Part shown: positions 9,462 through 54,532 of the stretch, piece by piece
Layout: each line of letters opens with the position of its first letter
How positions within the stretch are numbered: position 1 is the first letter of the stretch
Assembly: GCF_014838715.1 (NCBI RefSeq)
Contig: NZ_CP061947.1
Coordinates: 2,914,001-2,978,000, forward strand
Length of the DNA: 64,000 bases
Origin: Algoriphagus sp. Y33
Lineage (GTDB): Bacteria > Bacteroidota > Bacteroidia > Cytophagales > Cyclobacteriaceae
Direction: 5' to 3'
Notes under the pieces: model-generated
The model's input: only the letters and a program-made list of their open reading frames with translations
Told to the model about the DNA's origin: nothing
Database searches by the model: none
Translations under genes and position numbers: made by a program

Positions 9462-9726
9462 GTGTTTATATTTTTGTCTTTCAAAGGTCACCCCGAATAG
9501 TCGGGGCAGGCTATGGAATCTCGCACGGTTTATAATCATTCCACTGTGTGTCGCCCTCGAAATGCTCGATTTCATGTGTTTATAATTTGTTTTTTTAAAG
9601 GTAATAACCTGTTCCTTGACCAAGGAAACGGAGTAGTCTGTCCCGATCCGCCGAGGCGGATCGGGACAATCTTGCATTGCTTATAATTATCCCGGTGTGT
9701 GACGTTTGAGTCATGCTCTATTTCAT
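9459..9726. repeat. Two tandem copies of the start-codon-proximal ~95-bp repeat, enlarged by nested palindromes
   Basis: Copies run 9459-9575 and 9573-9726; both begin with CATGTGTTTATAAT and end near GCTC(G/T)ATTTCAT. The first carries an inserted CCCCGA/TCGGGG hairpin (9491-9506). The second carries TTCCTTG/CAAGGAA (9612-9627) and a 14-bp-arm hairpin TGTCCCGATCCGCC with its complement (9639-9668). On the minus strand the repeat ends exactly at the ATGAAA start of the beta-propeller gene. Related copies are at 15388, 39279 and 54413. Confidence 0.8.
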
Positions 9727-27109: not shown

Positions 27110-27118
27110 AAAAATCTG

Positions 27119-35122: not shown

Positions 35123-35141
35123 AATCTAGCTTAATAAGGGA

Positions 35142-35909
35142 TTACTTTTCTATAATTCGTTTTTTGACCGGATCCATATTGAATAAAATGGAATTGTAAT
35201 TTGGAGCTGAGACATCACAGGCCACATTGACTGTCTGATAGTCAATCATCCCGCAGGAATCCGTGACTTTCAATTCAATCTGATACGGAGGTGGTAAGTC
35301 CACCAAAATCCCGCTGCTGTATCCCTGGATTGGTATCAACTCTTCAAAATCAGCATCTCCCCCGGAAAACTTCCATTCAATCAGGTAAGGGGCTTTTCCT
35401 CCTTTTACATCACTAAAAAACTCAATTAACGTGTTGGACGGAGTCTGACAGTCTATGTTGATGGGAGATTTTACAATGTTTACTTGTATGGGCAACTCAT
35501 CCCGCAGGGGATCTATCAATAAGTTCTTTTTGTATCTTTTCCCCATGTCGTCCACCAGCGAGAGGTCAAAAATCGTGGGTTCCTCCAGCCCTGACAAGTC
35601 TACATTAGCAAGCAAAAAACTGTTATTGCCGAAACTTTTCCGGAAGATGTAGCTATCGGAATTCTGATCTGCTTTATTTTCCAAAACTATCCGGACAGAA
35701 TCCTTCGTTCCGAATTTATCTTCAAAGATCACCCCTATTTTACCCCCATGATACGCTATCTGCTGAAAGTCGCCCTGAACGGCATTGAGATGGACATAAT
35801 AAACCGTGGTATCAGATGTCCTCAAATGATTTTCAAGTTCATCGTACTGTTGGGCAAACACTGATGATGTCCAAAGCAAAATCGTGGATATTAATACAAC
35901 ATATTTCAT
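35142..35909 (-). CDS. Secreted protein of the RHS operon, unknown function
   Basis: 255 residues with signal peptide MKYVVLISTILLWTSSVFAQ. The C-terminal half looks like a PKD/Ig-type beta sandwich (APYLIEWKFSGGDADFEELI, PPPYQIELKVTDSCGMIDYQ). There is a Cys in NIDCQTP and in VNVACDV that may form a disulfide. Its start codon overlaps the stop of the upstream gene (TAATG at 35911-35907), showing translational coupling. No enzymatic motif. Likely a structural accessory of the exported RHS assembly. Confidence 0.72.
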   Translation of the reverse strand: MKYVVLISTILLWTSSVFAQQYDELENHLRTSDTTVYYVHLNAVQGDFQQIAYHGGKIGVIFEDKFGTKDSVRIVLENKADQNSDSYIFRKSFGNNSFLLANVDLSGLEEPTIFDLSLVDDMGKRYKKNLLIDPLRDELPIQVNIVKSPINIDCQTPSNTLIEFFSDVKGGKAPYLIEWKFSGGDADFEELIPIQGYSSGILVDLPPPYQIELKVTDSCGMIDYQTVNVACDVSAPNYNSILFNMDPVKKRIIEK

Positions 35910-37267
35910 TATTTGCGGGATAATTTGGAGATGCCTATTCTAAAATCGACTACATTATTATAGCCACCCTTCAGGGATTGCGGATTCAAAAGTGTTTGGA
36001 TATTAAGTTTCGTCTCCCCGCCGGGCGAAAGATTAAACAATCTCCCTGCACCTAGCTTAAGGTTGGAATAAAGGCCTTCGGCTTCGGTAACAACTTCAGA
36101 AAAATCCGGATTCCTCCTAAATGAATTTTCCACGATTACAAAAAGCTTATCTTCAAAGATTTTTCGTCTGGCAAACAGTCTGGCTCCTATGGCAGAAAAG
36201 TCTTTGCCCGAAACCCCTATTTCAGGTCCAAGCCCCAATTCATAAAATTCGCTTAGCCTAACCCCCAAACTTCCCGAAAAATCAGAAACCGATACGTTAT
36301 CCTTATACTTTTCCATAGAGACAAGCCCCTCAAAAAACAGGTTATCCTTAAGTTTCTTCTTTTCGGAAATCAGATACATACTTAGGGAATCCTGTATTTC
36401 CTCGCTGATTCTATAGAGTTTGTCACTTGCAAGAGAACGAATACTGTCTACTATTTCCCTGTCCTTGACACTTATGACCCGCTTTGCCATGGCTTGCTTT
36501 TGGGTGACACCCTCCAAAGCCATCGCCTCACCGCCTATCTCCCCGGAAAATTGTGATTCAAGCTCTTTTTGAAACTGATCTTTATCCTGCCAAGGCAGAT
36601 CCCGCATTTGGCCACCAAAAAGGGAATCAGCAGAAAATCTTTCCAAAATAGAGGTTGGGATAGAATCAAAACCACCATCTAAATAGTGGGTAAGACCGGC
36701 AGGCTTACCCTCTTGTAGCCGACGGACAGCCTTATCTTCCCACAGTTCGTCGGGGATTAATGAATCCTCATTGAAAGTCGGCTCCCCGCCGGATTCCTGC
36801 GGCATTTTTACAAAACGGAGAATGTTTTTCAATGAATCGGCACTTTGCGGTTTTTGCTCAGAGGCTTTTTGAAAGCTTCCGATATTCTTTAAAAATAAAT
36901 CTGTCTTCTGCCCTTTGATAAGGGTATCGACAGGTAATTTTTCAACAAAACTTCCTGACAGAGAATCAAAATCATCATCAAAATATTGGGTAATGACGGC
37001 AGATTTTCCCTCCTCCATCGGAAAGACCTTGCCGGACACTAAAGAATCATATTTAATGCCCTTCTCCAATTTAGAAGCAGGCAATATCCCGCTATTCCTG
37101 AGAAAGGATTTTGATAAGTCGCCCTTTTTCGGTGTTGACTGTATAGTGTCTAATACGGGAGAAAATATTTCAACACGTTCACCAATTATTTTTTCTACCC
37201 TGCTCTGAGCCGGGCTTTCAAACGTGAAGCAAAAAATCAATACCAAGAAACAATATCCCTTTGCCAT
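35909..37267 (-). CDS. First gene of the RHS operon: exported protein with internal duplication
   Basis: 452 residues with signal peptide MAKGYCFLVLIFCFTFESPA. Residues ~70-134 and ~168-234 are a degenerate direct repeat, e.g. EEGKSAVITQYFDDDFDSLS against QEGKPAGLTHYLDGGFDSIP, both ending SFQK/QFQK. After a helical stretch (~255-310) the last ~130 residues look like an outer-membrane beta sheet or barrel (LSEFYELGLGPEIGVSG, LKLGAGRLFNLSPGGETKLN, NNVVDFRIGISKLSRK). An outer-membrane anchor or platform for the RHS proteins is a reasonable inference; no family is recognised. A 16-bp palindrome lies about 60 bp upstream. Confidence 0.7.
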   Translation of the reverse strand: MAKGYCFLVLIFCFTFESPAQSRVEKIIGERVEIFSPVLDTIQSTPKKGDLSKSFLRNSGILPASKLEKGIKYDSLVSGKVFPMEEGKSAVITQYFDDDFDSLSGSFVEKLPVDTLIKGQKTDLFLKNIGSFQKASEQKPQSADSLKNILRFVKMPQESGGEPTFNEDSLIPDELWEDKAVRRLQEGKPAGLTHYLDGGFDSIPTSILERFSADSLFGGQMRDLPWQDKDQFQKELESQFSGEIGGEAMALEGVTQKQAMAKRVISVKDREIVDSIRSLASDKLYRISEEIQDSLSMYLISEKKKLKDNLFFEGLVSMEKYKDNVSVSDFSGSLGVRLSEFYELGLGPEIGVSGKDFSAIGARLFARRKIFEDKLFVIVENSFRRNPDFSEVVTEAEGLYSNLKLGAGRLFNLSPGGETKLNIQTLLNPQSLKGGYNNVVDFRIGISKLSRK

Positions 37268-37991: not shown

Positions 37992-39281
37992 TTAGGTATT
38001 CAAAGCAAATTCGGGCTGTCTTTTTGATTTTCCATGTAGCAAAATCAACGTAATAATACACACAGCCGTCATGATGATTCCGGCAATTTGATTCAGATCT
38101 CCCAGGAAATTTACCCATGTCACCTGCGAGCCACTGAACTCTTTGAACAGCATCACTCCCACACTTCCGCTGTAGCCCAGTGCGTCTGCGGTGTAGAAAA
38201 GAAAACCAACATTCCCACTAAAGCGCAGCATTGCAATGAATCGCTCAAAGATCAGACAATGAAATAAAATGTAGGGCAAATAAAGTCCTACTCCATTGAT
38301 TATCATCCACCAGATAGGTGACATGACGCCCTTTTCAAAAACAAATGTCAACACCACAATCCCTATACAGCATGTCATGCTCAGATAAATCCCATAATCA
38401 AACGCCTTACGGTTGTCCCGTATCAGCACTCCAAAAGCTGCAATCACCAAAACCAACACCGCTACAGGAATCTCGGTCAGCGTGATCAGTTGTGGACTAC
38501 CATGCATACCGAGCTCAGCCCAAAATTCCACCATAAAATTGTCACGGAAATCACGCACAATTGTCAAGAGCACATACACCACCACCAAGCCGCCAAAGAC
38601 CAGCCCATTTTTTCTCAAAAAATCCATCCGTTGCCGTGCATTCATCGGCAGCCGTTCGGACCGAAGCATCAAATCCTCCGTTGAGCGTTGCTGGGAACTG
38701 CTGAGCATTCGTACTGACACCAGAAAAAAAGGAAAGAAAAGTAAACCCGTGAGAAAGGGCATAAAAAATTCACCTATGCCAAAATCCTGCATCAACCACA
38801 ACCCCGCTGATTTCACCAATCCTGTGGAGAAAATAAAAGTAGCACTCAATGCAGCAGCCAAAAGCTCTGTGTTTTTCCTCCCCTCCAGATAGGAAAAAAC
38901 CAACCCAAACACCATTCCCAATGGAAATCCATTCAAAAACAGCGCAAACGGCTTCAAGTTGATAGGCAAAACTGCAAAAGCCAAAAGCATGAGCAAGCCG
39001 AATCCGACCAAAGCAATTAAGGAAATGGCACGTCTATTGGGTGTCATTTCGGACACTAATTTGATGCCCAGAAACTTAGAAAACATATAGCCAAGTACCT
39101 GACTGATCACCAGCACAGTCTTAAGATCCATCCCGTAAAAACCTGCGTCGAGGTATTGCCCGGCTAGAAATGCCTTACGAACCGCATACATACCCGTGTA
39201 GCAGAGAAATGCCCCGGTCATTAGCATATATGTTGATCTTTTAGGAAAAGACATCCTAAATACCGCTGGCATGGTTTTCAT
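37992..39281 (-). CDS. DUF5690 family MFS-like membrane protein
   Basis: 429 residues from ATG at 39279-39281. The frame is open further upstream to 39323, but that part is translated repeat DNA. About twelve membrane segments are visible, beginning RSTYMLMTGAFLCYTGMYAV, with VLVISQVLGYMFSKFLGIKL and NGFPLGMVFGLVFSYLEGRK. This matches the Bacteroidota-specific DUF5690 family, distantly MFS-like. It lies divergent from and next to the phosphonatase-like and FAD oxidoreductase genes. I infer a permease for a phosphonate or a breakdown product; the family has no assigned substrate that I know of. The C-terminus ends in a short basic tail. Confidence 0.8.
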   Translation of the reverse strand: MKTMPAVFRMSFPKRSTYMLMTGAFLCYTGMYAVRKAFLAGQYLDAGFYGMDLKTVLVISQVLGYMFSKFLGIKLVSEMTPNRRAISLIALVGFGLLMLLAFAVLPINLKPFALFLNGFPLGMVFGLVFSYLEGRKNTELLAAALSATFIFSTGLVKSAGLWLMQDFGIGEFFMPFLTGLLFFPFFLVSVRMLSSSQQRSTEDLMLRSERLPMNARQRMDFLRKNGLVFGGLVVVYVLLTIVRDFRDNFMVEFWAELGMHGSPQLITLTEIPVAVLVLVIAAFGVLIRDNRKAFDYGIYLSMTCCIGIVVLTFVFEKGVMSPIWWMIINGVGLYLPYILFHCLIFERFIAMLRFSGNVGFLFYTADALGYSGSVGVMLFKEFSGSQVTWVNFLGDLNQIAGIIMTAVCIITLILLHGKSKRQPEFALNT

Positions 39282-39473
39282 GTGTTTATAATTGTTTTCT
39301 ATTGGCCACATGGAATCTCGCACGGTTTATAATCATCCCACTGTGTGTCGTCTTCGACATGCTCGATTTCATCTGTTTATAATTTGCTTTTAGAGGTCAG
39401 ATGGAATCTTTGACGGTTAAAACAATCATTGGCCTGTGTGTTTTAATGATGATTTCAATCGTGTCGATTTCAT
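39279..39473. repeat. Two tandem copies of the start-codon-proximal ~95-bp repeat
   Basis: First copy 39279-39372 (94 bp, hairpin GTCG-TCTT-CGAC), second 39370-39473 (diverged, hairpin lost). Both end in CGATTTCAT. The first ends exactly at the DUF5690 start codon on the minus strand. The first copy is near-identical to 54413-54507 over its whole length. Confidence 0.85.
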
Positions 39474-40105
39474 ATCATGATTTTTTTAATCAAATTCTGA
39501 CATTAGCCAAAAAATCCAAAAATCTAATTTAGAAGACTCTTTTCCGGGAGATTCCAGTAAAAAACAAAATCTCAAAACTTTATAAGTTAGCTAACTAAAT
39601 ACTGTTTTCTAACTATATAGTAGTATTGTATTTCAAAGATATTGGCATCAATTCAAAAACTTAAAACCTGCATGTTAAGTGTTTATTAACTTTTAACAGC
39701 AATAAATTAATTTTCCAATTAGGAAATTTTTTAAGTTTATTTGTGCCCATCACAAGGGTAGATTTTGGACAGGGAAATCGCTTTTAACTTTCTAGATAGA
39801 AATAATGCCACCCCCCGGGGTTATTATACAACATAAAGACGTTTTAAGCTAAAATCTTATTATCCCCGCCACAGTGCGCAAGCTCTTCGGGATTTAAAAG
39901 CCTGAAATTCTAAGATAGTTATAGAAAATGTTGGATTTTGCTTTCAGTTAAACCCCAAAGAACCTGTCCCGGGAATCGGGAGGTGAAATAAATTTTAAAC
40001 GCGATTTTCCTGAGATTTTGGACTACACCGAGTCAATAGACAGAATTTTCACAGAGGGGAATCACACCAAACTCCTGAGAAAGCCATCTCTATCATTAAA
40101 AACAA
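39474..40105. promoter_or_regulatory. Divergent intergenic region of the phosphonate locus
   Basis: About 630 bp, mostly AT-rich and non-coding, between the DUF5690 gene and the phosphonatase-like gene. It holds a 12-bp palindrome AGTTAGCTAACT (39585-39596) that could bind a regulator. No gene recognised. Confidence 0.45.
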
Positions 40106-40807
40106 ATGAGGAAAAAACACTACATCAAACTTATCGTTTTTGACATGGCAGGAACTACTGTCAATGAAAACAATGTGGTCTACAAGACTCTCCAACTGGC
40201 TATCAATAAGCTAGGTCATGACGTTACGCTTCACGATGTGCTGTTGAATGGCGGGGGAAAAGAAAAACTACAGGCTATCCGTGACATCATGAGACCTGCT
40301 TACAACTCTTCCGATTCGCTTGAAAAAGATGCACAGGCTGCATTCTCTGACTTTCTTATTTTGCTAAAGGATGCTTATGAAAACTTAACGGTGACTACCT
40401 ATGAGGGCACAGTAGCGCTCTTTGAGTATCTCCGAAAAAATGGTGTAAAAACAGCTTTGAACACCGGGTACAACACAAAAACAGCGCTTTCACTCTTGGA
40501 AAAATTGAACTGGGGCGAAGGGCAGACATTTGATGCGTTGGTGACCGCAGACGATGTGGACAGAAGCAGGCCCGCTCCTGATATGATTTTGCTGGCTATG
40601 GAAAAGTGTGGGATATCCAACCCCAAGGAAGTGGCTAAAGTAGGTGACTCGATGGTAGATATCGAAGAAGGAAAAGCAGCCCACTGCGGACTGACATTTG
40701 GCGTGACTACCGGTGCCCAGACAGCAGACCAACTTAATGCAGCTCGCCCGGATTTCATTATCGATTCACTTCCGGAATTGAAAAGTATAATTGCAATAAG
40801 GGGCTAA
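40106..40807 (+). CDS. Phosphonatase-like HAD hydrolase (PhnX-like, TIGR03351 type)
   Basis: 233 residues of the HAD superfamily. Motif I is IVFDMAGTTV with nucleophile D13 and Ala at position 15 in place of the usual second Asp, the hallmark of phosphonatases. A helical cap follows (LLNGGGKEKLQAIRDIM), then motif II NTGYNTKTA and motifs III-IV VAKVGDSMVDIEEGKAA. Phosphonatases break the C-P bond of phosphonoacetaldehyde by a Schiff-base lysine in the cap; which lysine would serve here (K56 or K58 region) is uncertain, and the related class is only called phosphonatase-like. It is followed after 97 bp by the FAD oxidoreductase, the known partner of this family. Confidence 0.85.
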   Translation: MRKKHYIKLIVFDMAGTTVNENNVVYKTLQLAINKLGHDVTLHDVLLNGGGKEKLQAIRDIMRPAYNSSDSLEKDAQAAFSDFLILLKDAYENLTVTTYEGTVALFEYLRKNGVKTALNTGYNTKTALSLLEKLNWGEGQTFDALVTADDVDRSRPAPDMILLAMEKCGISNPKEVAKVGDSMVDIEEGKAAHCGLTFGVTTGAQTADQLNAARPDFIIDSLPELKSIIAIRG

Positions 40808-40904
40808 TTATCAATAGCCATAACAACGTCTCGCCCTGTTCCTATTTCTTCGTATCCGGCAAGCTACCACACACATTTTGAGAATTCTTCTAACATTGTA
40901 ATTC

Positions 40905-42038
40905 ATGAATCCACAACATGCTATCGTAATCGGCGCAGGTATCGTAGGACTATCCGTGACCAGAGCACTACATGCCCAAGGCTGGAAAGTAACTGTTATT
41001 GAGCGTCATCCCCAGGCTCAGGGAGCATCAGTGAGAAATTTCGGTATGATTTGGCCTATAGGTCAAGCGCAGGGCCCAAGCTTCGACCGGGCTGTACGTA
41101 CCCGGGAAATCTGGCTAGAGATGGCTCAAAAAGCCGGATTTTGGGTTGAGCAGACCGGCGCATTGCATTTAGCATATACTGATTTGGAGCTACAGGTGGT
41201 CTCGGAATATGTATCTGCCATGAAAGGCAAAAATTCGGCCCGGCAACTTTCACCGGAAGAAACCCTTGCGAAAAGTCCTGCAACCGTCGGGAAAGGACTT
41301 AAAGGGGCACTTTGGACTACGGAGGAGATGATAGTGGATCCAAGGGAGGCCATCGCCAAAACTGCTAACTATCTTGAAAGCCTCCAAGGCGTAGACTTCG
41401 TCTGGAACAGAGCCATCTCACGCATCGAAGGAAACACGGTTTACAGCGGTCAGAAATCCTGGTCTGCAGACAAAATATTTGTCTGCAGCGGTGCTGACTT
41501 TGAGACCTTATATCCTGAATTGTTTGAGTCCACTCCTATCACCAAGTGTAAGCTACAGATGATGCGCCTGGTACAGCAGCCGCAGAGTTGGCGTATCGGC
41601 CCGCCACTATGTGCAGGACTAAGCTTTATACACTACAAGGGTTTTCAAGTTGCGGCTTCCTTGCCGAAGCTTAAGGAAACCTATACCGGGCAGTACCAAG
41701 AACTGCTTGATCTGGGTATTCACGTAATGGTCTCCCAAAATGGCAAGGGAGAACTGACCATTGGTGACAGCCATGAATATGGGCTTAACTTCACACCCTT
41801 TGACTCCAAACATATCAACCAACTAATCTTGGAAGTGTTACGGACTTTTGCACAATTTAAGGACTGGGAAATCGACAGCTCCTGGCACGGGATTTATCCT
41901 AAAATGACCAATGGTGCGACGGAATTTGTCCATCAAGTCGATGACATCGTTACCATTGTCAATGGAATGGGAGGCGCAGGAATGACACTTTCCTTTGGAC
42001 TCGGTGAAGAGGTGGTAGCGTCCAGCCCAAACCGGTAG
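40905..42038 (+). CDS. FAD-dependent oxidoreductase of phosphonate loci (TIGR03364 type)
   Basis: 377 residues of the D-amino-acid-oxidase (DAO) fold. The dinucleotide motif is VIGAGIVGLSVTRALHAQGW near the N-terminus, with ERHPQAQGASVRNFGMIWPI after it; the C-terminal FAD contact is NGMGGAGMTLSFGLGEEVV. This clade is known for synteny with TIGR03351 phosphonatase-like hydrolases, and related enzymes oxidise aminoalkylphosphonates such as 2-aminoethylphosphonate or its N-methyl form. The expected reaction here would give a phosphonoaldehyde for the enzyme encoded upstream. Cytoplasmic. Substrate is inferred from the family, not from visible residues. Confidence 0.85.
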   Translation: MNPQHAIVIGAGIVGLSVTRALHAQGWKVTVIERHPQAQGASVRNFGMIWPIGQAQGPSFDRAVRTREIWLEMAQKAGFWVEQTGALHLAYTDLELQVVSEYVSAMKGKNSARQLSPEETLAKSPATVGKGLKGALWTTEEMIVDPREAIAKTANYLESLQGVDFVWNRAISRIEGNTVYSGQKSWSADKIFVCSGADFETLYPELFESTPITKCKLQMMRLVQQPQSWRIGPPLCAGLSFIHYKGFQVAASLPKLKETYTGQYQELLDLGIHVMVSQNGKGELTIGDSHEYGLNFTPFDSKHINQLILEVLRTFAQFKDWEIDSSWHGIYPKMTNGATEFVHQVDDIVTIVNGMGGAGMTLSFGLGEEVVASSPNR

Positions 42039-42223
42039 GGAGTTCCTCTGCTGGTTTAGGCGCAATCATTTGACAATTTTATAACATGATAATAAAACTC
42101 TTGAGGCTCAATTTATTTTGAGCTGAGAATGTACAATTCCGAAGATGCTATATTGGATCAGTTGCTTCTCTCAAACTAATGCAAAACAATCCGGCGGGAT
42201 ACCCGGGCGGGCACAAAGGCGTA

Positions 42224-42802
42224 CTATACTTTGTCTTCGAAGAAATAAACTACCAGCATTTGTACGGGAATATTGCCCACATTTACCGGATTATGCTCCA
42301 GCCTTCCGTCAAATAACATAGAATCTCCCGACTCCAGATCAATTTCCTGATCTCTGAAAATGTACCGTACTGAGCCCGAGATAATGAATTTGTACTCAAA
42401 AGCATCAGTCTGCACAAAATCCCGTGTGGATCCCGGCTGGATCTCCAGAAGCACAATATCAATGGTGCTCTGTTTGACTTTCTTAGTGAAAACCCGAAAA
42501 TACTCATAGCCGCTAGCTGCTTCCTTTTCGAATCGCTCATAAGCTGACTTACGCCGGATCAATACAGGGGATTCACGCGCATGCAGGTCCAATTCTGTAA
42601 AAAATGAATCCAAATCAACTTCCAGTGCTTTGATGATCTGAATCAAAACCAGCAAAGATGGAATAGTGCGACTGTTTTCGATCTGCGAAATCAACCCCTT
42701 GGTGACTCCTGCCAGATCGGCAACGTCCTGCAGGGTCATACCTTTTTCCTTGCGAATACTTTTGATTTTGTTACTGATCTGTACGATCACTTCATGCTCC
42801 AT
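42224..42802 (-). CDS. XRE-family regulator with cupin sensor domain
   Basis: 192 residues. An N-terminal Cro/CI helix-turn-helix (about 8-62: SIRKEKGMTLQDVADLAGVT, KGLISQIENSRTIPSLLVLI) is followed by a C-terminal cupin (about 115-188: VLLEIQPGSTRDF, SGDSMLFDGRLEHNPVN). Such regulators sense a small molecule with the cupin and often repress their own promoter. It lies between the catabolic genes and is divergent from the PhnZ-type gene, so it probably controls this locus. An inverted repeat at 42829-42866 just upstream of its start is a candidate autoregulatory operator. Confidence 0.88.
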   Translation of the reverse strand: MEHEVIVQISNKIKSIRKEKGMTLQDVADLAGVTKGLISQIENSRTIPSLLVLIQIIKALEVDLDSFFTELDLHARESPVLIRRKSAYERFEKEAASGYEYFRVFTKKVKQSTIDIVLLEIQPGSTRDFVQTDAFEYKFIISGSVRYIFRDQEIDLESGDSMLFDGRLEHNPVNVGNIPVQMLVVYFFEDKV

Positions 42803-42828
42803 GTCCTGCTATTTTGGGTGTGCTAAGC

Positions 42829-42866
42829 TAACCTACTTATTTATTGAAAAGTAAAAAAGCAGGTTA
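42829..42866. promoter_or_regulatory. Inverted repeat, candidate operator of the XRE-cupin regulator
   Basis: TAACCTACTT (42829-42838) and AAGCAGGTTA (42857-42866) are inverted repeats with one mismatch in ten, 18 bp apart, beginning 27 bp upstream of the regulator start. Spacing of about 2.7 helical turns between centres suits two operator half-sites. Confidence 0.5.
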
Positions 42867-43263
42867 CGTTAGATTTAGGATAATTGAATTACCCTTTGTG
42901 TAATAGCCCGCATCTAACCGCCTCACTTTTGATGGAATAAATTTCCGGTTAAATTGACTAGCAAAAAGGGAGCTTCATGCAAAGCATCCACTCCCTGAAT
43001 TAACAAACCAATTAAATCAATGTTTAGTAAAATTAAACATCAAAACACATCAGAATTCTAAATTCAGATTATTTATATGTTATCTTAAAACCAAAGAACT
43101 ATTATGAATCTCATCCAGTCCAGCAAAAACAATTACCTACTTAATTTAGTCTCATTTTGGTATAGTGATGACAACAACTTCAACAAATCACAAATTCTTA
43201 ACACCATTACTTTGAGAAGTTTGATCCCAATACCTTATTTATGTATATATAAACCTGTTAATT
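42867..43263. promoter_or_regulatory. Rest of the divergent intergenic region upstream of the PhnZ-type gene
   Basis: AT-rich and without a supported gene. TGTTTA (43021-43026) and TAAACA (43034-43039) form a 6-bp-arm palindrome with a 7-bp spacer. A small frame starting at 43104 overlaps the PhnZ-type gene out of frame and is not supported. Confidence 0.4.
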
Positions 43264-43842
43264 ATGGACAAGAAAGCTTCCAAACTCAGTAGCGCCAAGA
43301 GAGTTGACATGGTGTTTGATCTATACAGAAAATTCGGACAGGAGGATTACATAGGAGAGCCTGTATCACAGATTGAGCATATGAGCCAATCTGCCCAAAT
43401 TGCAGAAAAAGAAGGACATGATGACGAAGTGATTTTGGCAGCATTCTTTCATGACATCGGGCACTTATGTGTCAACCAAGGAGACTTTGAAACCATGCAT
43501 GGCTATGGGATACTAAGTCACGAGAAAATCGGAGCTGACTTTTTAAGAGATATTGGGTTTCCTGAACGAATAGCCAAATTGGTTGAAAACCATGTACAGG
43601 CCAAGCGCTACCTGACCTACAGATATCCGGAATATTACGAGAAACTCTCCCAAGCAAGCCGGAAAACACTTGAGTTTCAGGGCGGAAAAATGAATGAAGA
43701 TGAAGCTGTTGCCTTCGAGACTGATCCACTCTTTGAGTTGTCTCTTAAGATGCGTACTTGGGACGAAATGGCAAAAGAAGAAAACATCCCCCTGCCCGAT
43801 CTGGAAAGCTATATACGGATGGCAGAACGATTGATCAATTAG
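43264..43842 (+). CDS. phnZ: PhnZ-type HD-domain diiron oxygenase for phosphonate breakdown
   Basis: 192 residues. The HD-fold ligands of PhnZ can all be placed: H39, H63-D64 (FFHDIGH), H86 (SHEKIG), H110 (ENHVQAK) and D167 (TWDEM), with H67. The PhnZ substrate-gating pair is also present as Y29 and E32 in YIGEPVSQIEH. PhnZ is a mixed-valent diiron oxygenase that cleaves 1-hydroxy-2-aminoethylphosphonate to glycine and phosphate with O2. The usual partner PhnY*, which makes the hydroxylated substrate, is not in the window. The start ATGGACAAGAAAGC gives the family length. A terminator shared with the convergent phosphatase gene follows. Confidence 0.85.
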   Translation: MDKKASKLSSAKRVDMVFDLYRKFGQEDYIGEPVSQIEHMSQSAQIAEKEGHDDEVILAAFFHDIGHLCVNQGDFETMHGYGILSHEKIGADFLRDIGFPERIAKLVENHVQAKRYLTYRYPEYYEKLSQASRKTLEFQGGKMNEDEAVAFETDPLFELSLKMRTWDEMAKEENIPLPDLESYIRMAERLIN

Positions 43843-43943
43843 TGCAAGGTTCTAAATTCTGATTACAGACAGCTCATTTCCGTTTAATTCTTACCCCACA
43901 ATACTTTTTTGAAATCTTGGGTAGATGTTTTACTCAATTGAAA

Positions 43944-43976
43944 AAAACACCCCTCCGAATGCCGGAGAGGTGTTTT
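43944..43976. terminator. Bidirectional terminator
   Basis: Hairpin arms AACACCCCTCCG and CGGAGAGGTGTT (one mismatch) between the convergent PhnZ-type and phosphatase genes. It is flanked by A-rich sequence on the left and TTTT on the right, so it can work in both directions. Confidence 0.65.
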
Positions 43977-44030
43977 GAACAGCTTCAGCTGGGATGGCAA
44001 CTAGAGAAAGCCACCTAAAAAGCAAAAAGT

Positions 44031-45134
44031 CTAGTTGGTTCCTTCCACCATTTCCCTGATGCCCCTGTCGGCTTTCGAATCCGGATATTCCATTCCCAGC
44101 AACTGGAAAATGGTACGGGCAACCATGGAAGAATGCCACTGGCCTTGGGACTTCATTTCGCCACCGGCCGGTGTATCGGGTCCAATAGCCGCCATCCAGA
44201 TCTCTCCCGCTTCAGGCACAGATGAGCCATGACTTCTCCAAGAAGTTTTGCTGATGCCACGACCATGATCGGTGGTAATGATCATCGTAGTCTTGTCTTT
44301 GTACTGAGGGTCTGACTGCACGAAGTCCCAGATCTCCTTGATATAAGCATCCGTCTGCTTAGCTGACCAGATGTACTGATCGTACTGATTTCCGTGTGCC
44401 CAGTCGTCAGTCTCTCCATAAGAAACATACAGCACTCTTGGCTTTTTGTTTTTCAAGGCTGCCATTGCATAGTTCTGTGTAAACACATCCAATCTCACTC
44501 CTCCCCATGGCCCGCGGATTTCGGATTGCATCTTGTTGGTCAAAATCTCTTCAGGGGAAAGATCAGCCCCCTCGGCAATGTCAAATCCGGCATTCACGGG
44601 CACTGCACTTCTCTCCTCATTTATTATATAGGGAAATACATCCCAAGAACCGAAGGCCATCACTTTACCCTTAAACCCAGGTTTCTGATTCAGATACTCC
44701 AGAAAAGTCACATTGGGATTGTTGATTTTATCATTACTGTTGATGTGCCTATCATCTGCAAATCCACTCAGCACTTCATTGTACCCAGGATAGGAAAACC
44801 ACATTTTATTGCTGTTGTCAACCTTATTTCCATAAGCACGATTGCCATAGATTTGACCTTCTTCGGCAATGGTATTCCACAGAAACGGCAGTAGCATCCC
44901 CCTCCTCACAAGAGGATCTATATTCCAGAAATCTTCCAGTAAAGATCCCGGTTCTTTGACCATTCCTGTATCATCCACAAGCAAGGAATCCGCCCCTTTG
45001 AATACCTCCTGCCACCTCAGCCCATCTAATGTGATCAGGATGATGTTTTCAGTCTTGTACTCTTGCCCTTTTACCGTGCCTATCCGGAAAAAACAGAAAG
45101 CGAGAGCCGCATAAATAATTGATTTTTTTAACAT
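44031..45134 (-). CDS. Exported alkaline-phosphatase-superfamily hydrolase
   Basis: 367 residues from the ATG at 45132-45134 (MLKKSIIYAALAFCFFRIGT, signal peptide ending near VKGQ); an ATG at 45161 in the same frame is less likely because it extends the n-region. Metal-site marks are ILITLDGLRWQEVF (D37), SYGETDDWAHG, TTDHGRG and SHGSSVPEAGE. The nucleophile position of the phosphodiesterase/NPP-like branch falls in WFSYPGYNE (S114 likely). It would hydrolyse a phosphate or phosphonate ester in the periplasm. It directly follows a SusD/SusC pair on the same strand, suggesting it processes the substrate that pair imports. Exact substrate not determinable. Confidence 0.78.
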   Translation of the reverse strand: MLKKSIIYAALAFCFFRIGTVKGQEYKTENIILITLDGLRWQEVFKGADSLLVDDTGMVKEPGSLLEDFWNIDPLVRRGMLLPFLWNTIAEEGQIYGNRAYGNKVDNSNKMWFSYPGYNEVLSGFADDRHINSNDKINNPNVTFLEYLNQKPGFKGKVMAFGSWDVFPYIINEERSAVPVNAGFDIAEGADLSPEEILTNKMQSEIRGPWGGVRLDVFTQNYAMAALKNKKPRVLYVSYGETDDWAHGNQYDQYIWSAKQTDAYIKEIWDFVQSDPQYKDKTTMIITTDHGRGISKTSWRSHGSSVPEAGEIWMAAIGPDTPAGGEMKSQGQWHSSMVARTIFQLLGMEYPDSKADRGIREMVEGTN

Positions 45135-45295
45135 TATTTTTATGAGGTTATGAATTAACATGAACTTGTATCAGAGTTCTCTCCACCTACCCTAATGCAA
45201 AATCCGAGTTTGAAAAGTCACCCCTCATTCTACTAAGAAGGGTGACATTTGAGTTAAGTTATACCTTTTGAGGGACTATCCAGTCTGCTATCTAA

Positions 45296-46846
45296 TTAAT
45301 CCATATCCCACCACACGCGTGTGGTAATGGCATCCGGGCCTTGACGCGCTATCGCACTTTCGTAGTTCGCTTTATTGAGCGATTGCACAGAACTAGGATA
45401 CATGAAACGGACAGGAACCGTATTGATGTAAGCTGCAGGCCCCGGAGTGATTTTAGGATAATCCGTTCTTCTCCAGTCATACCAGCCTTCCATTCCTGAG
45501 AAATACAGGGCAAGCCACTTTTGAGTACCGATTTTGGACAGCTTCTCTTCAGTAGAGCCGGTATAAGCTACTTCCGGCTGCGCAAAATACGCATCTCCCA
45601 CTACCAACTTATCTGCTATCTGAGGTAGATTAATGATTTCATATCGGCTTTTGTAATAAGCAAAAGAAGACTCAATCCCATTTTTATAATAATCTTCAGC
45701 TGTGCCGGTAGTGATATACCCTCTTTCTCTAGCTTCTGCCAATACAAACTGAAGTTCTGAATAACTCATTAAGATCGCCTGGGCACCAATAGGATTTGCC
45801 AGCGGGGTACATGCAGAACAAGACCATAGATACCCCACACGGGATATGAAATTAGAACCGCCCTTGGTAGGGTCACCTGAAGGAGAATAAGCCAAAGCCT
45901 CCTCATCCGCCAAGCCGTTTGGCACCCCTTGGTAATCGTCCTTAGTTCCGATCACTCCTGCTCCGGAGTCGTTAGTAGGCTGCGCATAGGCATACAATCT
46001 TGGATCTTCCAGCTCTTTCAAAACGTTTTCCATTCTTTCACTCAACCTATACTCATCAAAAGAACCGGAACGGGTAGTATACAACCCATGCTGGTTTGGT
46101 ACATCCTGAAGGTATTGCAAAGCCGCCTGATCGTCATTGGAAGTGAAGATCGGGTACTGCGTAGGATCAGAAACAATCGCCTGCATGCCTGCCGCCGGAT
46201 TCATCCGGTCAGAAAGCCTCATTAGCATTCGAAGCCTAAGTGAATTCGCATACTTCTTCCATCTCACCACATTCCCATCGAAAAGAATATCTCCTTCTAC
46301 ACTTTCTGCCGTTGATCCCAGTAAGGCATTCGCCTGCTCCAGCTCTGCAAGAATCCCATTATAGATCACTTCCTGCGTATCAAAAACCGGGTAGTTCACA
46401 TCTTCCTTGGCTTTCGTCGCCTCCGAATATGGCAAATCCCCGTAAGCATCCGTCATAAACGAATAAAGACTCGCTCTTAACACAAGGGCAATCCCGACGT
46501 AATTACTTTGCCCTGCTGCCGTAGAGATCTCGATCACATTGTTCAGATCCCGAATAGAATTGTAGAATGTGCTGTATGGGTTTCCTTCGGGCCCCCAGTT
46601 ATACCTGTCTTCATTGGTAAACTGAATCTTGGCAGTCTGCTGCATCACTACGTTCCCGTACCCCCAAGCCTTTCCCGAGATTTCATTCGTAGTATTCCGG
46701 ATGATGTTCGGCAAAAGCAAACTTGAAGAAACCATCTCAGGGCTGTTTGGATTTGTGTTAACTTCATCGAAATCCTTGTCGCAGCTGACCAGAGAAAGCA
46801 TTGCTGCCAACCCAATTCCTGCTATATATTTTGTATTGAAATTCAT
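45296..46846 (-). CDS. SusD/RagB-like nutrient-binding outer-membrane lipoprotein (SusD-like_2 type)
   Basis: 516 residues. The lipoprotein signal MNFNTKYIAGIGLAAMLSLV is followed by C22, so it is anchored and surface-exposed. It starts with DEVNTNPNSP and the TPR-like helices of SusD proteins (SLRLRMLMRLSDRMNPAAGM), and carries the C-terminal WLALYFSGMEGWYDWRRTDY typical of the SusD-like_2 subfamily. It caps the TonB-dependent SusC barrel encoded upstream (gap 64 bp, same strand) and captures the ligand. Placement beside phosphonate genes suggests a phosphonate-containing ligand rather than a glycan; no glycoside hydrolases adjoin it. Confidence 0.9.
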   Translation of the reverse strand: MNFNTKYIAGIGLAAMLSLVSCDKDFDEVNTNPNSPEMVSSSLLLPNIIRNTTNEISGKAWGYGNVVMQQTAKIQFTNEDRYNWGPEGNPYSTFYNSIRDLNNVIEISTAAGQSNYVGIALVLRASLYSFMTDAYGDLPYSEATKAKEDVNYPVFDTQEVIYNGILAELEQANALLGSTAESVEGDILFDGNVVRWKKYANSLRLRMLMRLSDRMNPAAGMQAIVSDPTQYPIFTSNDDQAALQYLQDVPNQHGLYTTRSGSFDEYRLSERMENVLKELEDPRLYAYAQPTNDSGAGVIGTKDDYQGVPNGLADEEALAYSPSGDPTKGGSNFISRVGYLWSCSACTPLANPIGAQAILMSYSELQFVLAEARERGYITTGTAEDYYKNGIESSFAYYKSRYEIINLPQIADKLVVGDAYFAQPEVAYTGSTEEKLSKIGTQKWLALYFSGMEGWYDWRRTDYPKITPGPAAYINTVPVRFMYPSSVQSLNKANYESAIARQGPDAITTRVWWDMD

Positions 46847-46910
46847 ACTATTCTGTTTTTGAGAGTTTTTTAGATTCTAAAGGCATAAAAAGTCTATCAG
46901 CTGCCGATGC

Positions 46911-49900
46911 TTAGAACTTTACGTTAAGATTAAAACCAATACTTCTTGTAGATGGAAAAGACATATCCTCCACACCGGGGATTAGCGTACCGCCACCCAT
47001 TGCCATCGTCTCAGGATCGAAGTGGGGATTCTCTGTCCAAAGCACCAGGTTTCTGCCTACCAAGGAGATTTTCACATCTTCAAAGGGCAATCTGCCCAAA
47101 ATAGATCTTGGGATAGTATAACCCAATGTCACTTCCCTAAGCTTCAAGAAAGTAGCATCATACTTAGCCGCTTCCACATTATCCCGTTCATAGTATCTGT
47201 TGTGCCAGTTTCTGGAAGTAGTTTCGAAAGTATTTGGACTGTAAGAACCGTCCGCATTTGCCACTACACCCTCACTGATGATGCCGTTGCCTTCGCCTTC
47301 TAAATCATAGCCGGTTTCGCGACCGTAAAGGGTTTCTGCAAGCTGACCGGAAGTACTTCCGATAGTCTTGGTTCTTGACACGACTATTCCCCCATATCTA
47401 AAGTCAAACAAGAATCCCAGATTGATTCCCTTGTAGCTGAAGTTGTTTTGCAAGCCAAGCATCCAATCCGGATTGTAATTTCCCTGAAGCTTCAATTCCG
47501 GATCCATAAGTGGCGTTCCTGTGGAATTGTGGATGATCTGGCCAAAATATTCAGAATCTTCATCCTCTACTCTGGCAAAGCCTCTTCCGTAAATATTCCC
47601 CATTCTTTCCCCTACTCTCGCCTGAATATCGGCTCCGTTTCTGCCTGTAAGAGAATAGGTGTCAAGACCTTCCGTCAATTCTAGAACTTTACCCCTGTTT
47701 CGCGTGAAGTTGGCCATCAGATTCCAGCTAAATCCGGAGCTGTTTCTGATTGGATTTGCGCTCATCACGATTTCTATTCCCCTATTTTGAATCTCACCTG
47801 CATTGATTATCCTGGAAGCATAACCGGTAGCTATATCCAGTTCAATTGGAATAATCTGGTTTTTGGTTCTGTTGTCGAAGTAAGTAAAGTCAATGCCCAA
47901 TCTTCCTTCAAAAAAACGCACATCAAGCCCCGTTTCAAATGCACCGGTTCTTTCAGGCTTTAATTCTGAGTTGGAAAGTCTGTTTGATTCAGATTTTGAC
48001 TGAATAGACCCCCAGGCAGTCTGTGAGCTATAGACATTGGAAAGGCTGTATGGATCGGTATCATTTCCCACCTCAGCATAGGCTAATCTTGTTTTTAGAA
48101 ATGAAATAAATCCCGGCATAGTCACCATATCAGAGATCACAGCACCGAATGTAGCAGAAGGATAGAAATAGCTATTATTATCAGCAGGTAACGTACTTGA
48201 CCAGTCATTTCTGCCTGTGAGGTCTAGGAAAAGGATGTTTTTGTAACCAATCTGACCGAAACCATATAAAGAGTTGATGCGCTTCTCCGAATTGTACTGA
48301 GTCACCTGAAGGTTTACTGCTGTATTGGTGAAGTTGTAAATGTTCGGGATCAATAGCTGAGGAGCTACCGTCTGCAAGTACCTGTTTTCCTGACGCATTT
48401 GGTTCCCACCTACCGCAATACTATAAGTAAATACCTCACTGTTAGATTCAGAATAAGTCAATAAGAAATCAGAGTTGATTTCGGAGAAATACAAGTTGTC
48501 TTCCCTGTAATTTCCTTTCGGAAAACGCTGCGTACTAAATGCTCTTTTCCGATCTCTTAATTCATTATAGGTATCCAAACCTGTTCTCAGCATCAAGTTT
48601 AGCTTATCGGTGAACTTGTAGTTTACCGAGATATTACCATAGATTCTATCCTTAGCCTGTCCGTTGGTATTTTCATACACATTGAAATATGGATTATCAT
48701 GATAGTTATAGTTGTAATTATACTGTTGCTGGCCTTCCAATCCCGGCATCCAGTAATCTCTCAGGTTTGCCGTATTGACCTGACGGCCATACCAAATCCA
48801 CAAGTACATCAGGTTTTCCGTACCGTAACTGATATTTGGTCTGTTTCCGCTGTCAGTTCTCTGAAAGTTAACCGTAGAGTTTACTGTGAGTTTATCCGTA
48901 AGGTTAAGCCCCCCATTCATGGAAATGGTATTTCTCTTTAGATCCGTATTTGGCACAATTCCTTTTTGATCCAAGTTGGTCCAGGATAGGCGAATATTTG
49001 CATTCTCATTGGCGGCAGCTAGCGCCACGTTATTTGAAAGCGTCACACCTGTACGGAAAAAGTCATTGATGTTGTCCGGACTCGACACCCAAGGAGTAGG
49101 TAGGATCACACTTCCTTCAGGCGCATTGAGATCCCCACCCCTGAAGCCGTTGACATCTCTTGGAGAATCGAACTGAGGAATCATTAAGCCGGCATCCAGT
49201 CTTGGACCCCAGCTTTCATCCACCCCATCAGCGATACCTGAACCTGCTCCGTTTACAAATTCAAATTGACCGTTATTTCCCTGACCGTACGTATTCTGCC
49301 AATCCGGAAGTCTTAGCGCATTGTCAAAAGTAGTGTTGGAGTTAATAGTGATTCCCAAGCCTTTCTTGCCTTTGCCTGATTTGGTAGTAATCAAAATAGC
49401 CCCATTTGCAGCTCTAGAGCCGTATAGTGCAGCTGCAGCGGGCCCTTTCAAAACAGTCATGGACTCAATATCGTCAGGGTTGATCTCACCCGCGGCATTA
49501 CCGTAATCCACTTCCTGATTGGAAGACCCGGAAGAACCAACTATATTGTTAGATATTGGAACACCGTTCACTACAAACAAGGGTTGGTTTCCATTGATAT
49601 TCAAAGAGGACTCTCCACGGATAGTAACCCGGCTGGATCCTCCGATTCCTGAAGAACTGTTGGTGACCTGAACACCCGCTACTCTTCCGCTCAGGGAGTT
49701 AATTACGTTTGTCTCCCGAGCCTCCGTAAATCTATCCCCCTCAACGGCTTGCACAGCGTAACCCAAGGCTTTGGTCTCCCGCTCCACTCCAAGGGCAGTC
49801 ACCACTACTTCATTGAGTGCAAGACCTTCTGTGAGCGTAACGTTAATTGTAGTTGAATTTCCTACTTCTTGCTCGATAGATTCAAAGCCTACGAAAGAAA

Positions 49901-50126
49901 AGATCAAAATCTCTCCTACGCTAGCTTGTATAACATAGTTTCCATCAATACCGGTTACCGTTCCCCGGTTAGTACCTTTAACCAGTACCGTTGCTCCGGG
50001 TAGAGGCTCATTAGTTGCGTCAATTACCTTCCCCTCAACATTGGTTTGTTGGGCGAAAGAAAAATTGATGATAAACAGCAAGCAAGCCGTTATCACACAT
50101 TGCCAAATGCTTTTTTTAGCAGTCAT
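46911..50126 (-). CDS. SusC/RagA-like TonB-dependent outer-membrane transporter
   Basis: 1071 residues. Signal peptide (to about residue 25, FIINFSFAQQ), then a carboxypeptidase-regulatory-like domain (VEGKVIDATNEPLPGATVLV, ~30-105) and the TonB-dependent start NEVVVTALGVERETKALGYA. The plug follows (~110-240, VTIRGESSLNINGNQPLFVV, SMTVLKGPAAAALYGSRAAN), then a 22-strand barrel ending RSIGFNLNVKF. It imports SusD-bound ligand across the outer membrane using the proton motive force. With the SusD partner and phosphatase it forms one minus-strand unit. Full length with intact ends. Confidence 0.93.
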   Translation of the reverse strand: MTAKKSIWQCVITACLLFIINFSFAQQTNVEGKVIDATNEPLPGATVLVKGTNRGTVTGIDGNYVIQASVGEILIFSFVGFESIEQEVGNSTTINVTLTEGLALNEVVVTALGVERETKALGYAVQAVEGDRFTEARETNVINSLSGRVAGVQVTNSSSGIGGSSRVTIRGESSLNINGNQPLFVVNGVPISNNIVGSSGSSNQEVDYGNAAGEINPDDIESMTVLKGPAAAALYGSRAANGAILITTKSGKGKKGLGITINSNTTFDNALRLPDWQNTYGQGNNGQFEFVNGAGSGIADGVDESWGPRLDAGLMIPQFDSPRDVNGFRGGDLNAPEGSVILPTPWVSSPDNINDFFRTGVTLSNNVALAAANENANIRLSWTNLDQKGIVPNTDLKRNTISMNGGLNLTDKLTVNSTVNFQRTDSGNRPNISYGTENLMYLWIWYGRQVNTANLRDYWMPGLEGQQQYNYNYNYHDNPYFNVYENTNGQAKDRIYGNISVNYKFTDKLNLMLRTGLDTYNELRDRKRAFSTQRFPKGNYREDNLYFSEINSDFLLTYSESNSEVFTYSIAVGGNQMRQENRYLQTVAPQLLIPNIYNFTNTAVNLQVTQYNSEKRINSLYGFGQIGYKNILFLDLTGRNDWSSTLPADNNSYFYPSATFGAVISDMVTMPGFISFLKTRLAYAEVGNDTDPYSLSNVYSSQTAWGSIQSKSESNRLSNSELKPERTGAFETGLDVRFFEGRLGIDFTYFDNRTKNQIIPIELDIATGYASRIINAGEIQNRGIEIVMSANPIRNSSGFSWNLMANFTRNRGKVLELTEGLDTYSLTGRNGADIQARVGERMGNIYGRGFARVEDEDSEYFGQIIHNSTGTPLMDPELKLQGNYNPDWMLGLQNNFSYKGINLGFLFDFRYGGIVVSRTKTIGSTSGQLAETLYGRETGYDLEGEGNGIISEGVVANADGSYSPNTFETTSRNWHNRYYERDNVEAAKYDATFLKLREVTLGYTIPRSILGRLPFEDVKISLVGRNLVLWTENPHFDPETMAMGGGTLIPGVEDMSFPSTRSIGFNLNVKF

Positions 50127-50797
50127 TTTGAAGTAGAGGTTTTGAATAAGTATTATTTTAGTCTCAAAATTTTATTAAAACTATACTTTCCCTATTGGCT
50201 AGTGATTAAATCAGCTTTATCAAAAAATGAATTAATTGTATGTTAATTCGGCAATAAAATGCCCTAAAACCCTAATAATTCGGAAAATAGACATTACTGA
50301 CACTTAACATTCCTATCGGGATTCCTCTTTATTATCCAACTTTTATTCAAAAAAGTATATAAATATTAAACCATTAAGATTTGGCAGCTGATAAAAACCA
50401 TCTTCCAAAGAAGCTAGATGCCTCCCCTACCTCCTGTCCCAAGCCAGCCGTCTGGCAAAACAAAAGGACATGGTCTCCTGCCCAGAGAGCATCGCTTGAA
50501 AATGAGGAATGGTGTAGGAGGTGGGAAGGTGCGTAGGATGTATTTTATCCATCCTTAATCCCCTATTGACCCAAATCATTGAAGTTGAGGCAACTCTCTT
50601 CCTCCATTTACCCTGGCTTTTATATTTCTGTAGTGAGGAAAAAGACCCCAAAAGCCACAAATCACCTGTATGTTACTGAAAAAATCTAAGGGCTAAAAAT
50701 CACCTTACTATTCATTTTGAAAAATTTTCATGAAAAACGGCTTTTTTCTAAGAGCCCTGTATTACCTATTCTAATTTTGAGCTAGCTTTATCATCAA
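50127..50797. other. Intergenic region upstream of susC-like gene
   Basis: AT-rich leader to about 50390, then a mixed-composition stretch. A minus-strand open frame at 50427-50660 has no signal or motif. No gene is supported. Confidence 0.5.
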
Positions 50798-53518: not shown

Positions 53519-54415
53519 TTATTTTACAAATGACTGTATATATTCGGAACCTGAAGTCCAGGAAAGCCCTTTATACCGCTTATTCGCCAACTCGTTGTTT
53601 TGTGATGTGAACATGGAATACATGTATTGACCTTGTTGGAATTTTGCATACAATTCATTCTCACCCGCCGGATTATCAGCTCTTTGCTTTTTAATGGATG
53701 CAGCAAAATCCTCCATGCTTGATAATTGATGAATTTCAAACGCTTGATCACTAGCTTTATTGACTTCAGCCAAAATCATATTTGGGCTAATTTGAAAACT
53801 TGCAATCTGCAAATCTCTTGGCGCATCATCGTCCAAAGCCACTTCGGCTGCAAAGCCAGCCGTATCGTCCATCGTAGTAAAATCCAATTTCCAGTCAGCT
53901 TTCTCCCCCCAGTAACCAATGCTTCTGTCCTTTAGGTTTAATATCGGAATATTGTATTTGAGTATATCAGCAAAAGCACCATTGAAAACAGAAGATGCTT
54001 TGATGGAAGTACTGTCCAAGTAAGCTTTAAATTCTCTCCTTAGGTCAAAATTTCTGTTTTCACCAGGAACTAAATCATTGTAATCTGTACAAAAGTCGGA
54101 AGGAATAAATCTTGGAACACCAGCTTGAATGGCAGCATCCACTACTTTTTTTTGCAAGTCTACGATTACATCAGCCAAACCTGCCAGTGCAGAAACTACG
54201 GTATTTATCCCTTTGCATGCTTTCGCAATTTCATCGATGTTGTTCATGTCTACCCTGATCACCTTAACATCCATTTTAGTAAGCGCTTCTACTTTTACCG
54301 GGTCTGCAGATGGGCGGACAATGGCACTCACTTCTGCCCTCCTTTTAATTAGTTCCCTACAAATTCTAATTCCCAAATTACCTGTAGCACCTGCTACCAA
54401 TATTGATTTTTTCAT
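53519..54415 (-). CDS. NmrA-like NAD(P)-binding reductase
   Basis: 298 residues from the ATG at 54413-54415. An upstream extension to 54457 is translated repeat and not part of the protein. The Rossmann motif is ILVAGATGNLGIRICRELIK at the N-terminus, then AIVRPSAD and GINTVVSALAG, as in NmrA/isoflavone-reductase-type short-chain proteins. RFIPSDFCTDYNDL is the region before the active-site lysine in that family. It probably acts on a small aromatic or quinone-like molecule or as a redox sensor; no substrate can be read. The ~95-bp repeat lies directly in front of the start. Confidence 0.82.
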   Translation of the reverse strand: MKKSILVAGATGNLGIRICRELIKRRAEVSAIVRPSADPVKVEALTKMDVKVIRVDMNNIDEIAKACKGINTVVSALAGLADVIVDLQKKVVDAAIQAGVPRFIPSDFCTDYNDLVPGENRNFDLRREFKAYLDSTSIKASSVFNGAFADILKYNIPILNLKDRSIGYWGEKADWKLDFTTMDDTAGFAAEVALDDDAPRDLQIASFQISPNMILAEVNKASDQAFEIHQLSSMEDFAASIKKQRADNPAGENELYAKFQQGQYMYSMFTSQNNELANKRYKGLSWTSGSEYIQSFVK

Positions 54416-54507
54416 GTGTTTATAATTGTTTTCTATTGGCCACATGGAATCTCGCATGGCTTATAATCATCCCGGTGTGCGACGTTCTTCGTCATGCTCG
54501 ATTTCAT
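54413..54507. repeat. Start-codon-proximal ~95-bp repeat
   Basis: 95 bp, near-identical to 39279-39372; hairpin GACG-TTCTT-CGTC. On the minus strand it ends exactly at ATGAAAAAA, the start of the NmrA-like gene. Confidence 0.85.
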
Positions 54508-54532
54508 ATTTCTATTTCTTAACCGGTTTAAT

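Follow-up and report, generated by a model that had tools for sequence, protein, structure and literature searches.

Several described systems each resemble part of the locus reported here. AepP of Pseudomonas putida BIRD-1, a 2-aminoethylphosphonate (AEP) permease of the organophosphate:phosphate antiporter (OPA) class of the major facilitator superfamily (MFS), is, according to the accessible part of its description, a single-component inner-membrane carrier encoded with AEP catabolism (PMC8316502). Clusters that pair PbfD, an oxidase of the TIGR03364 family that uses flavin adenine dinucleotide (FAD), with the phosphonatase PhnX do without PhnW (PMC10590968), and PusCD phosphate utilization systems of Flavobacterium combine SusCD with a phosphatase or phosphodiesterase to obtain phosphorus (PMC8115612), as far as the available portions of those papers extend. 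The locus in question occupies positions 37992 to 50126 of a 64,000-nucleotide stretch of Algoriphagus sp. Y33 (NZ_CP061947.1, positions 2,914,001 to 2,978,000), which we call the window; the genome is a single contig of 6.38 Mb, and the nearest relatives of the oxidase in the window are within Algoriphagus. Profile scores recovered all eight genes that a preliminary description of this DNA had named there: those for a protein of family DUF5690, a PhnX-like hydrolase, an FAD oxidase, an XRE-cupin regulator, a PhnZ-type HD oxygenase, a hydrolase of the alkaline phosphatase (AP) superfamily, SusD, and SusC. We propose, with a probability of roughly 0.7, that this is an aminophosphonate utilization locus built like a polysaccharide utilization locus, with DUF5690 as its inner-membrane carrier.

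The locus shares something with each of these systems and departs from all of them. Like the PbfD-PhnX clusters, it joins an FAD oxidase to a phosphonatase in the absence of PhnW, whereas the report on those clusters treats neither SusCD nor DUF5690; in its main text as available, “bacteroid” does not occur and “transporter” occurs only in a reference (PMC10590968). PusCD systems act on phosphate esters, and “phosphonatase,” “phnX,” and “C-P lyase” are absent from the available main text (PMC8115612). AepP is recognizably GlpT-like, with a published identity of 27.75% (PMC8316502), whereas DUF5690 belongs to PF18943 and not to MFS_1. Among solved structures, PhnZ (PDB 4mlm) comes closest to the HD oxygenase, whereas the locus has no PhnY* partner for that enzyme. 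A literature search found no paper on DUF5690, and no title or abstract opening claiming phosphonate uptake by SusCD; most subscription journals were outside its coverage, so novelty is not proven. Such uptake is likewise not described in the accessible text of five papers (PMC8115612, PMC10752948, PMC12366243, PMC9381506, and PMC11892949).

A search with the oxidase alone gave 502 relatives; the best 80 were taken together with as much as 10 kb of flanking DNA per side, and their genes were clustered across loci. These 80 are the closer relatives only (58 to 91% identity), and contig ends cut several of them (L042, L053, L055, L062, L077, and L085 among others), all of which were kept in the counts. 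DUF5690 (minus strand, 37992 to 39281 in the window; PF18943, 446.7 bits against a gathering cutoff of 25) accompanied the oxidase in 77 loci, followed by the PhnX-like hydrolase in 61, the XRE-cupin regulator in 60, the HD oxygenase in 57, SusD in 48, SusC in 44, and the AP hydrolase in 29. This grouping of eight genes exceeds chance. In 65 of the 77 loci, DUF5690 and the oxidase shared a strand and were no more than 150 bp apart; in the remaining 12, as in the window, DUF5690 was divergent from the oxidase or separated from it by other genes, the window arrangement being divergent with the PhnX-like gene in between. Of the three loci without DUF5690, two (L053 and L077) start no more than about 320 bp from the oxidase, and L023 looks like the sole true absence.

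An alcohol dehydrogenase cluster was found in nine of the 80 loci, beside DUF5690 and the PhnX-like gene (L013 to L019, L037, and L065), and the L037 member scored above the cutoff of TIGR03366 (“phosphonate catabolism associated”). The gene is missing from the window, where a remnant was sought in the gap from 39323 to 40106 and none of the tblastn matches fell. The PhnX-like and DUF5690 proteins that accompany closely related oxidases form two different sets, one in L013 to L019 and L037 and the other in L020 to L036; the sets are 68 to 86% and 32 to 45% identical to the window proteins, as though the pair had been swapped in place.

An independent sample of 247 Bacteroidota genomes at least 90% complete, the window genome counted in, gave the same association. 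DUF5690 was present in 23 genomes and TIGR03364 above cutoff in 17, and 16 of these 17 also encoded DUF5690 (15 of 16 leaving out the window genome; the exception is G241). The Fisher P value for this co-occurrence, 7e-19, is overstated by the relatedness of the genomes. Measured from match coordinates, the distance between oxidase and DUF5690 was 37 to 1,110 bp in 11 of the 16 pairs, 1.75 kb in the window, and about 10 kb in G044, while three pairs were split between contigs (G146, G189, and G027). We then read the neighborhoods of all 11 DUF5690 genomes that have no TIGR03364 protein within 2 kb. In G153 the neighbors were another FAD enzyme, PhnW, PhnY, PhnA, HD, AP, SusD, and SusC; G146 had the gene run PhnW-DUF5690-PbfA; PhnW lay 108 bp from DUF5690 in G041 and 5.8 kb from it in G249, the latter with a PhnX-like gene and a TIGR03364 protein below cutoff (278.5 bits) as well; and PhnX-like and XRE genes were near DUF5690 in G189 and G044. 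PhnW scored above cutoff in four of the 23 genomes, and every copy was within 6 kb of DUF5690. The preliminary description had held that a position of DUF5690 mostly far from phosphonate genes would refute its interpretation; the outcome did not refute it, as DUF5690 lay at aminophosphonate catabolism genes in 18 of the 23 genomes (17 of 22 leaving out the window genome).

All four DUF5690 matches in a plasmid collection adjoined phosphonate genes. A plasmid of the alphaproteobacterium Novosphingobium encodes DUF5690, TIGR03364, and phosphonoacetaldehyde hydrolase in succession, with TonB and a TonB-dependent receptor adjoining, and two records of gut Bacteroidales deposited as plasmids, from Parabacteroides distasonis (L118) and Bacteroides finegoldii (L119), carry the run DUF5690-phnX-phnW. 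The same order was recovered by tblastn from a third such record, an unannotated one of Phocaeicola massiliensis (L134). The enzymes beside DUF5690 thus represent four routes in two phyla: oxidase with PhnX-like hydrolase, PhnW-PhnY-PhnA, PhnW-PbfA, and phnX-phnW. Because the membrane protein stays constant while the adjacent enzymes change, DUF5690 would be the permease that these routes share.

The predicted fold is in keeping with such a role. The AlphaFold2 model of DUF5690 (predicted local distance difference test, 86.2; predicted template modeling score, 0.87) has the MFS fold with 12 transmembrane helices, and its nearest folds are those of SLC37A4/G6PT, of the OPA class; G6PT accounts for 13 of the top 20 matching PDB folds. 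By sequence the family is remote. The DUF5690 profile had no match among PDB sequences at an E value of 1 or less, and the window protein had none to MFS_1 (PF07690) at 0.01 or less; a Novosphingobium relative scored 15.6 bits against that profile, below the cutoff of 33.4, compared with 173.6 for GlpT. Pfam holds PF18943 separate from MFS_1, which GlpT, UhpT, and UhpC do match. Three GlpT residues, R45, K46, and K80, align with R35, K36, and K69 of DUF5690, which are invariant in 30 sequences, and a fourth, R269, aligns with L239, four residues before an invariant R243; we take these four GlpT residues to form its phosphate site. DUF5690 is best described as a predicted divergent MFS carrier, OPA-like, and the direction of transport is presumably import. 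The earlier proposal of an inner-membrane permease is borne out as a prediction, and as such an aminophosphonate permease is well supported by the linkage to four enzyme routes together with the fold.

The open reading frame (ORF) for DUF5690 can be extended to 39323, where its upstream part runs through a dispersed repeat; the starts of relatives point to 39281, and the extension from 39281 to 39323 is probably not translated. The repeat, of about 105 bp and partly tandem, has 62 matches in the genome (some partial), with window copies at 39276 to 39380, 39367 to 39441, 54409 to 54515, 9513 to 9594, and 15384 to 15481, and it gives a common N-terminal extension to the ORFs at 37992 to 39323 and 53519 to 54457.

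The FAD oxidase (40905 to 42038, plus strand) scored 458.2 bits against TIGR03364 (cutoff, 285.1). In the available text on PbfD, PbfD1, an oxidase of N-methyl-AEP, carries the TIGR03364 annotation, and PbfD2, whose use of AEP is poorer by just 4-fold, has been proposed as a substitute for PhnW (PMC10590968). The window enzyme is accordingly predicted by family membership to turn AEP or N-methyl-AEP into phosphonoacetaldehyde. The suggestion in the preliminary description that the substrate is an N-substituted aminophosphonate fits the published activity on N-methyl-AEP, with AEP itself equally likely. Just upstream, the PhnX-like HAD hydrolase (40106 to 40807, plus strand) scored 215 bits against TIGR03351, marginally below the cutoff of 218.9, and 103.5 bits against the PhnX profile TIGR01422, below the cutoff of 220. 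Aligned with three annotated phosphonoacetaldehyde hydrolases, it keeps the DxAGT motif, presumably the nucleophile motif, and a cap-domain lysine column to which we likewise assign a role in PhnX; it is predicted to cleave phosphonoacetaldehyde.

The reaction of PhnZ yields glycine and phosphate from R-1-hydroxy-AEP. The HD oxygenase of the window (43264 to 43842, plus strand; TIGR03276, 220.8 bits; cutoff, 214.6) is closer to PhnZ (4mlm, 177.3 bits) than to TmpB (124 bits) among solved structures, and in alignment to 4mlm it keeps the pattern H...HD...H...H...D, which we take to be the metal ligands. Assignments as TmpB (NF049941, 159.6 bits) and as the hydroxymethylphosphonate dioxygenase PhnZ1 (NF052439, 131.4 bits) were rejected, the cutoff being 300 in both cases. 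The absence of PhnY* noted in the preliminary description stands for the locus and is not formal for the genome, where one protein of PhyH, presumably the family of PhnY*, lies about 1.25 Mb away (79.1 bits). PhnY* would be unnecessary because the hydroxy form, if taken up directly, could feed the HD oxygenase. The best PhnW match in the genome reached 43.9 bits against a cutoff of 400.8. An ATP-binding cassette transporter for phosphonates (phnCDE) had also been reported missing, and the PhnD-like profile TIGR01098 indeed had no match in the whole genome; AepX/PhnS-type and AepP-type importers and carbon-phosphorus lyase were not searched for.

The outer-membrane part consists of a SusD-like_2 lipoprotein (45296 to 46846, minus strand; PF12771, 341.8 bits; cutoff, 27) and a SusC/RagA TonB-dependent transporter (46911 to 50126, minus strand; TIGR04056, 652.5 bits; cutoff, 368.25). 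The HD oxygenase was also present in each of the 48 loci whose SusD belongs to the window cluster; in L049 and L063, tblastn gave faint signs of other SusD genes, which fall outside that cluster. When SusC of a Mucilaginibacter locus (L038) was searched against the window genome, the window SusC ranked first of 101 match rows at 378.8 bits, with the next gene at 229.9. The neighboring AP hydrolase (44031 to 45134, minus strand, in an ORF reaching 45161; PF01663, 29.0 bits; gathering cutoff, 23) behaved similarly: the AP protein of L046 matched it at 326.2 bits, and the sole other match in the genome scored 29.3. This protein has a signal-peptide-like N terminus and an invariant set of metal-site-like residues, and its sequence had no match in the PDB at an E value of 0.01 or less. 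The VIA scores of its model were 22.7 for PafA, 21.2 for a sulfatase, 20.7 for ENPP7, and 20.1 for phosphonate monoester hydrolase. It may be secreted and release phosphonate from a conjugate.

A palindrome, GTTTA-N7-TAAAC, links the outer-membrane and catabolic genes. One exact copy (43022 to 43038) lies between the HD oxygenase gene and that of the XRE-cupin regulator (HTH_3 and Cupin_2; 42224 to 42802, minus strand) and is conserved in relatives, and a weaker copy with one mismatch (50355 to 50371) stands about 230 bp upstream of susC, in a place similar to that in L013, L014, L028, and L036. Sites with at most one mismatch were counted gap by gap over the relatives' loci. The gaps used were those longer than 20 bp that separate divergent or tandem ORFs of at least 120 amino acids, each widened by 30 bp per side, with convergent gaps left out; a count in the 350 bp preceding every gene was set aside because it takes in coding sequence and shared gaps. 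The 205 gaps that precede core genes (60 kb) held 161 sites, compared with 6.7 (standard deviation, 2.3) in a first-order resampled control, and the 461 other gaps (119 kb) held 31, compared with 11.5 (3.3). Spacers of 3 to 6 or 8 to 11 in place of 7 gave 6 to 13 sites each. The gaps bearing the palindrome were 33 of 35 for SusC, 47 of 57 for PhnX, 31 of 56 for HD, 15 of 63 for XRE, 12 of 29 for DUF5690, 2 of 21 for FAD, and 0 of 8 for alcohol dehydrogenase, divergent genes sharing gaps. In the whole window genome there were 7 exact places, compared with 32 for a reversed control pattern.

Across the 80 loci, 54 had both the XRE gene and the palindrome, 11 neither, 6 the gene only, and 9 the palindrome only, with no XRE gene in the fetched stretch (P = 9e-5; P values overstate, because related genomes do not supply independent sites or gene pairs). 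The palindrome was not found in L017 to L019, where the XRE protein is divergent. Nine more distant loci were also scanned: an exact copy lies between XRE and susC in L114, copies with one mismatch lie between susC and XRE in L113 and near the PhnX-like and XRE genes in L108, a few hits occur in L098, L101, and L109, and none was found in L104, L117, and L118. The palindrome before the susC, PhnX, and HD genes suggests one regulon, and its correlation with the XRE-cupin gene makes that protein its likely binder. Synteny, the best-match test, and this operator-like palindrome support the preliminary view that SusCD is part of the same system as the phosphonate genes.

A number of observations weigh against our proposal. 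Five of the 23 DUF5690 genes are orphans (G027, G107, G142, G149, and G092), with no phosphonate gene recognized nearby, and the relatives set holds two more (L111 and L112). Other carrier genes occur close to two of the plasmid operons: one for a phosphate transporter upstream of that in Parabacteroides, and fucP plus a further MFS gene near that in Bacteroides. The fold scores of NorA and DgoT come close behind those of the OPA class, membership of which has weak sequence support (hhalign probability, 34%). A window-type SusD was not in the fetched stretch of 32 of the 80 loci, some of them cut by contig ends, and SusCD is not obligatory, because L017 to L019 and L037 carry the core without the window-type SusCD/AP/HD set. 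Foldseek places sulfatases and lipoteichoic acid synthases at the top for the AP model, so a phosphonate conjugate is only one candidate substrate. Taken by itself, the window shows a modest excess of palindromes (6 sites against 2.77 expected, with 4 of 100 shuffles as high), and the copy before susC is the mismatched one.

The alternatives differ in how well they fare. The best placed stays within our proposal and concerns the ligand of SusCD, which might be a phosphonoglycan or free aminophosphonate and not lipid derived; we hold this to be a real possibility, a little short of an even chance. SusCD systems usually take glycans, which also appears in the accessible text of PMC8115612, and phospholipase C is missing from the window locus, the one TIGR03396 match of the genome being at 4.24 Mb; TIGR03396 is above cutoff in only 8 of the 23 DUF5690 genomes. 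On the other side, phospholipase C is present in 47 of the 80 oxidase loci, in 36 of these downstream of the oxidase at a distance of 400 bp or less, and one member of the cluster scored 832.9 bits against a TIGR03396 cutoff of 580.25. Because of this frequency and position, phosphonolipid head groups are a good candidate, and the data hint at them as the source. The phosphonate ester envisaged in the preliminary description is a fair guess and unproven. Alternatively, SusCD and the AP hydrolase could scavenge ordinary phosphate esters, as PusCD systems do, and merely be co-located with phosphonate genes in a phosphorus-related locus; this we consider unlikely, as the clustered SusD occurs only alongside the HD oxygenase and susC shares its locus-specific palindrome with the catabolic genes of relatives. 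That DUF5690 is instead an exporter, an antiporter releasing phosphate in an OPA-style exchange, or a UhpC-like sensor, with another carrier importing the aminophosphonate, is more doubtful still: antiporters are annotated in the OPA class, as is the sensor UhpC, orphan DUF5690 genes exist, and other carrier genes lie within several kilobases of the gut operons, but DUF5690 is the recurrent membrane protein next to all four routes and the sole carrier inside the run DUF5690-phnX-phnW, and the window genome has no PhnD-like match, other importer types not having been sought.

In the aminophosphonate utilization locus that we propose, SusC and SusD would carry a conjugated aminophosphonate, or small aminophosphonates present at low concentration, over the outer membrane; the phosphonate would then be freed by the secreted AP-fold hydrolase, joined in many relatives by phospholipase C, and moved over the inner membrane by DUF5690. 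In one branch, the PbfD-type oxidase would convert AEP or N-methyl-AEP to phosphonoacetaldehyde, which the PhnX-like hydrolase would split into acetaldehyde and phosphate, and in a second the HD oxygenase would degrade the 1-hydroxy form, with no requirement for PhnY*. The XRE-cupin protein may control the catabolic genes and susC through the palindrome. Next to this locus, at 18710 to 37267, is a series of long minus-strand ORFs (2,799, 1,072, 1,594, 255, and 452 amino acids).

These results offer a testable function for a Pfam family of unknown function and a possible answer to how Bacteroidota without PhnD-type importers supply phosphonate catabolism. The broader claim is one to which we give even odds: that DUF5690 is a previously unassigned aminophosphonate permease family of Bacteroidota, including gut species, and some Alphaproteobacteria, and that environmental Bacteroidota use it for the inner-membrane step in a SusCD system dedicated to feeding on phosphonolipid or other phosphonate conjugates. 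If true, it would extend SusCD-based nutrition to carbon-phosphorus compounds and provide a candidate route for the turnover of phosphonolipids in water and soil and for the use of AEP by gut Bacteroidales.

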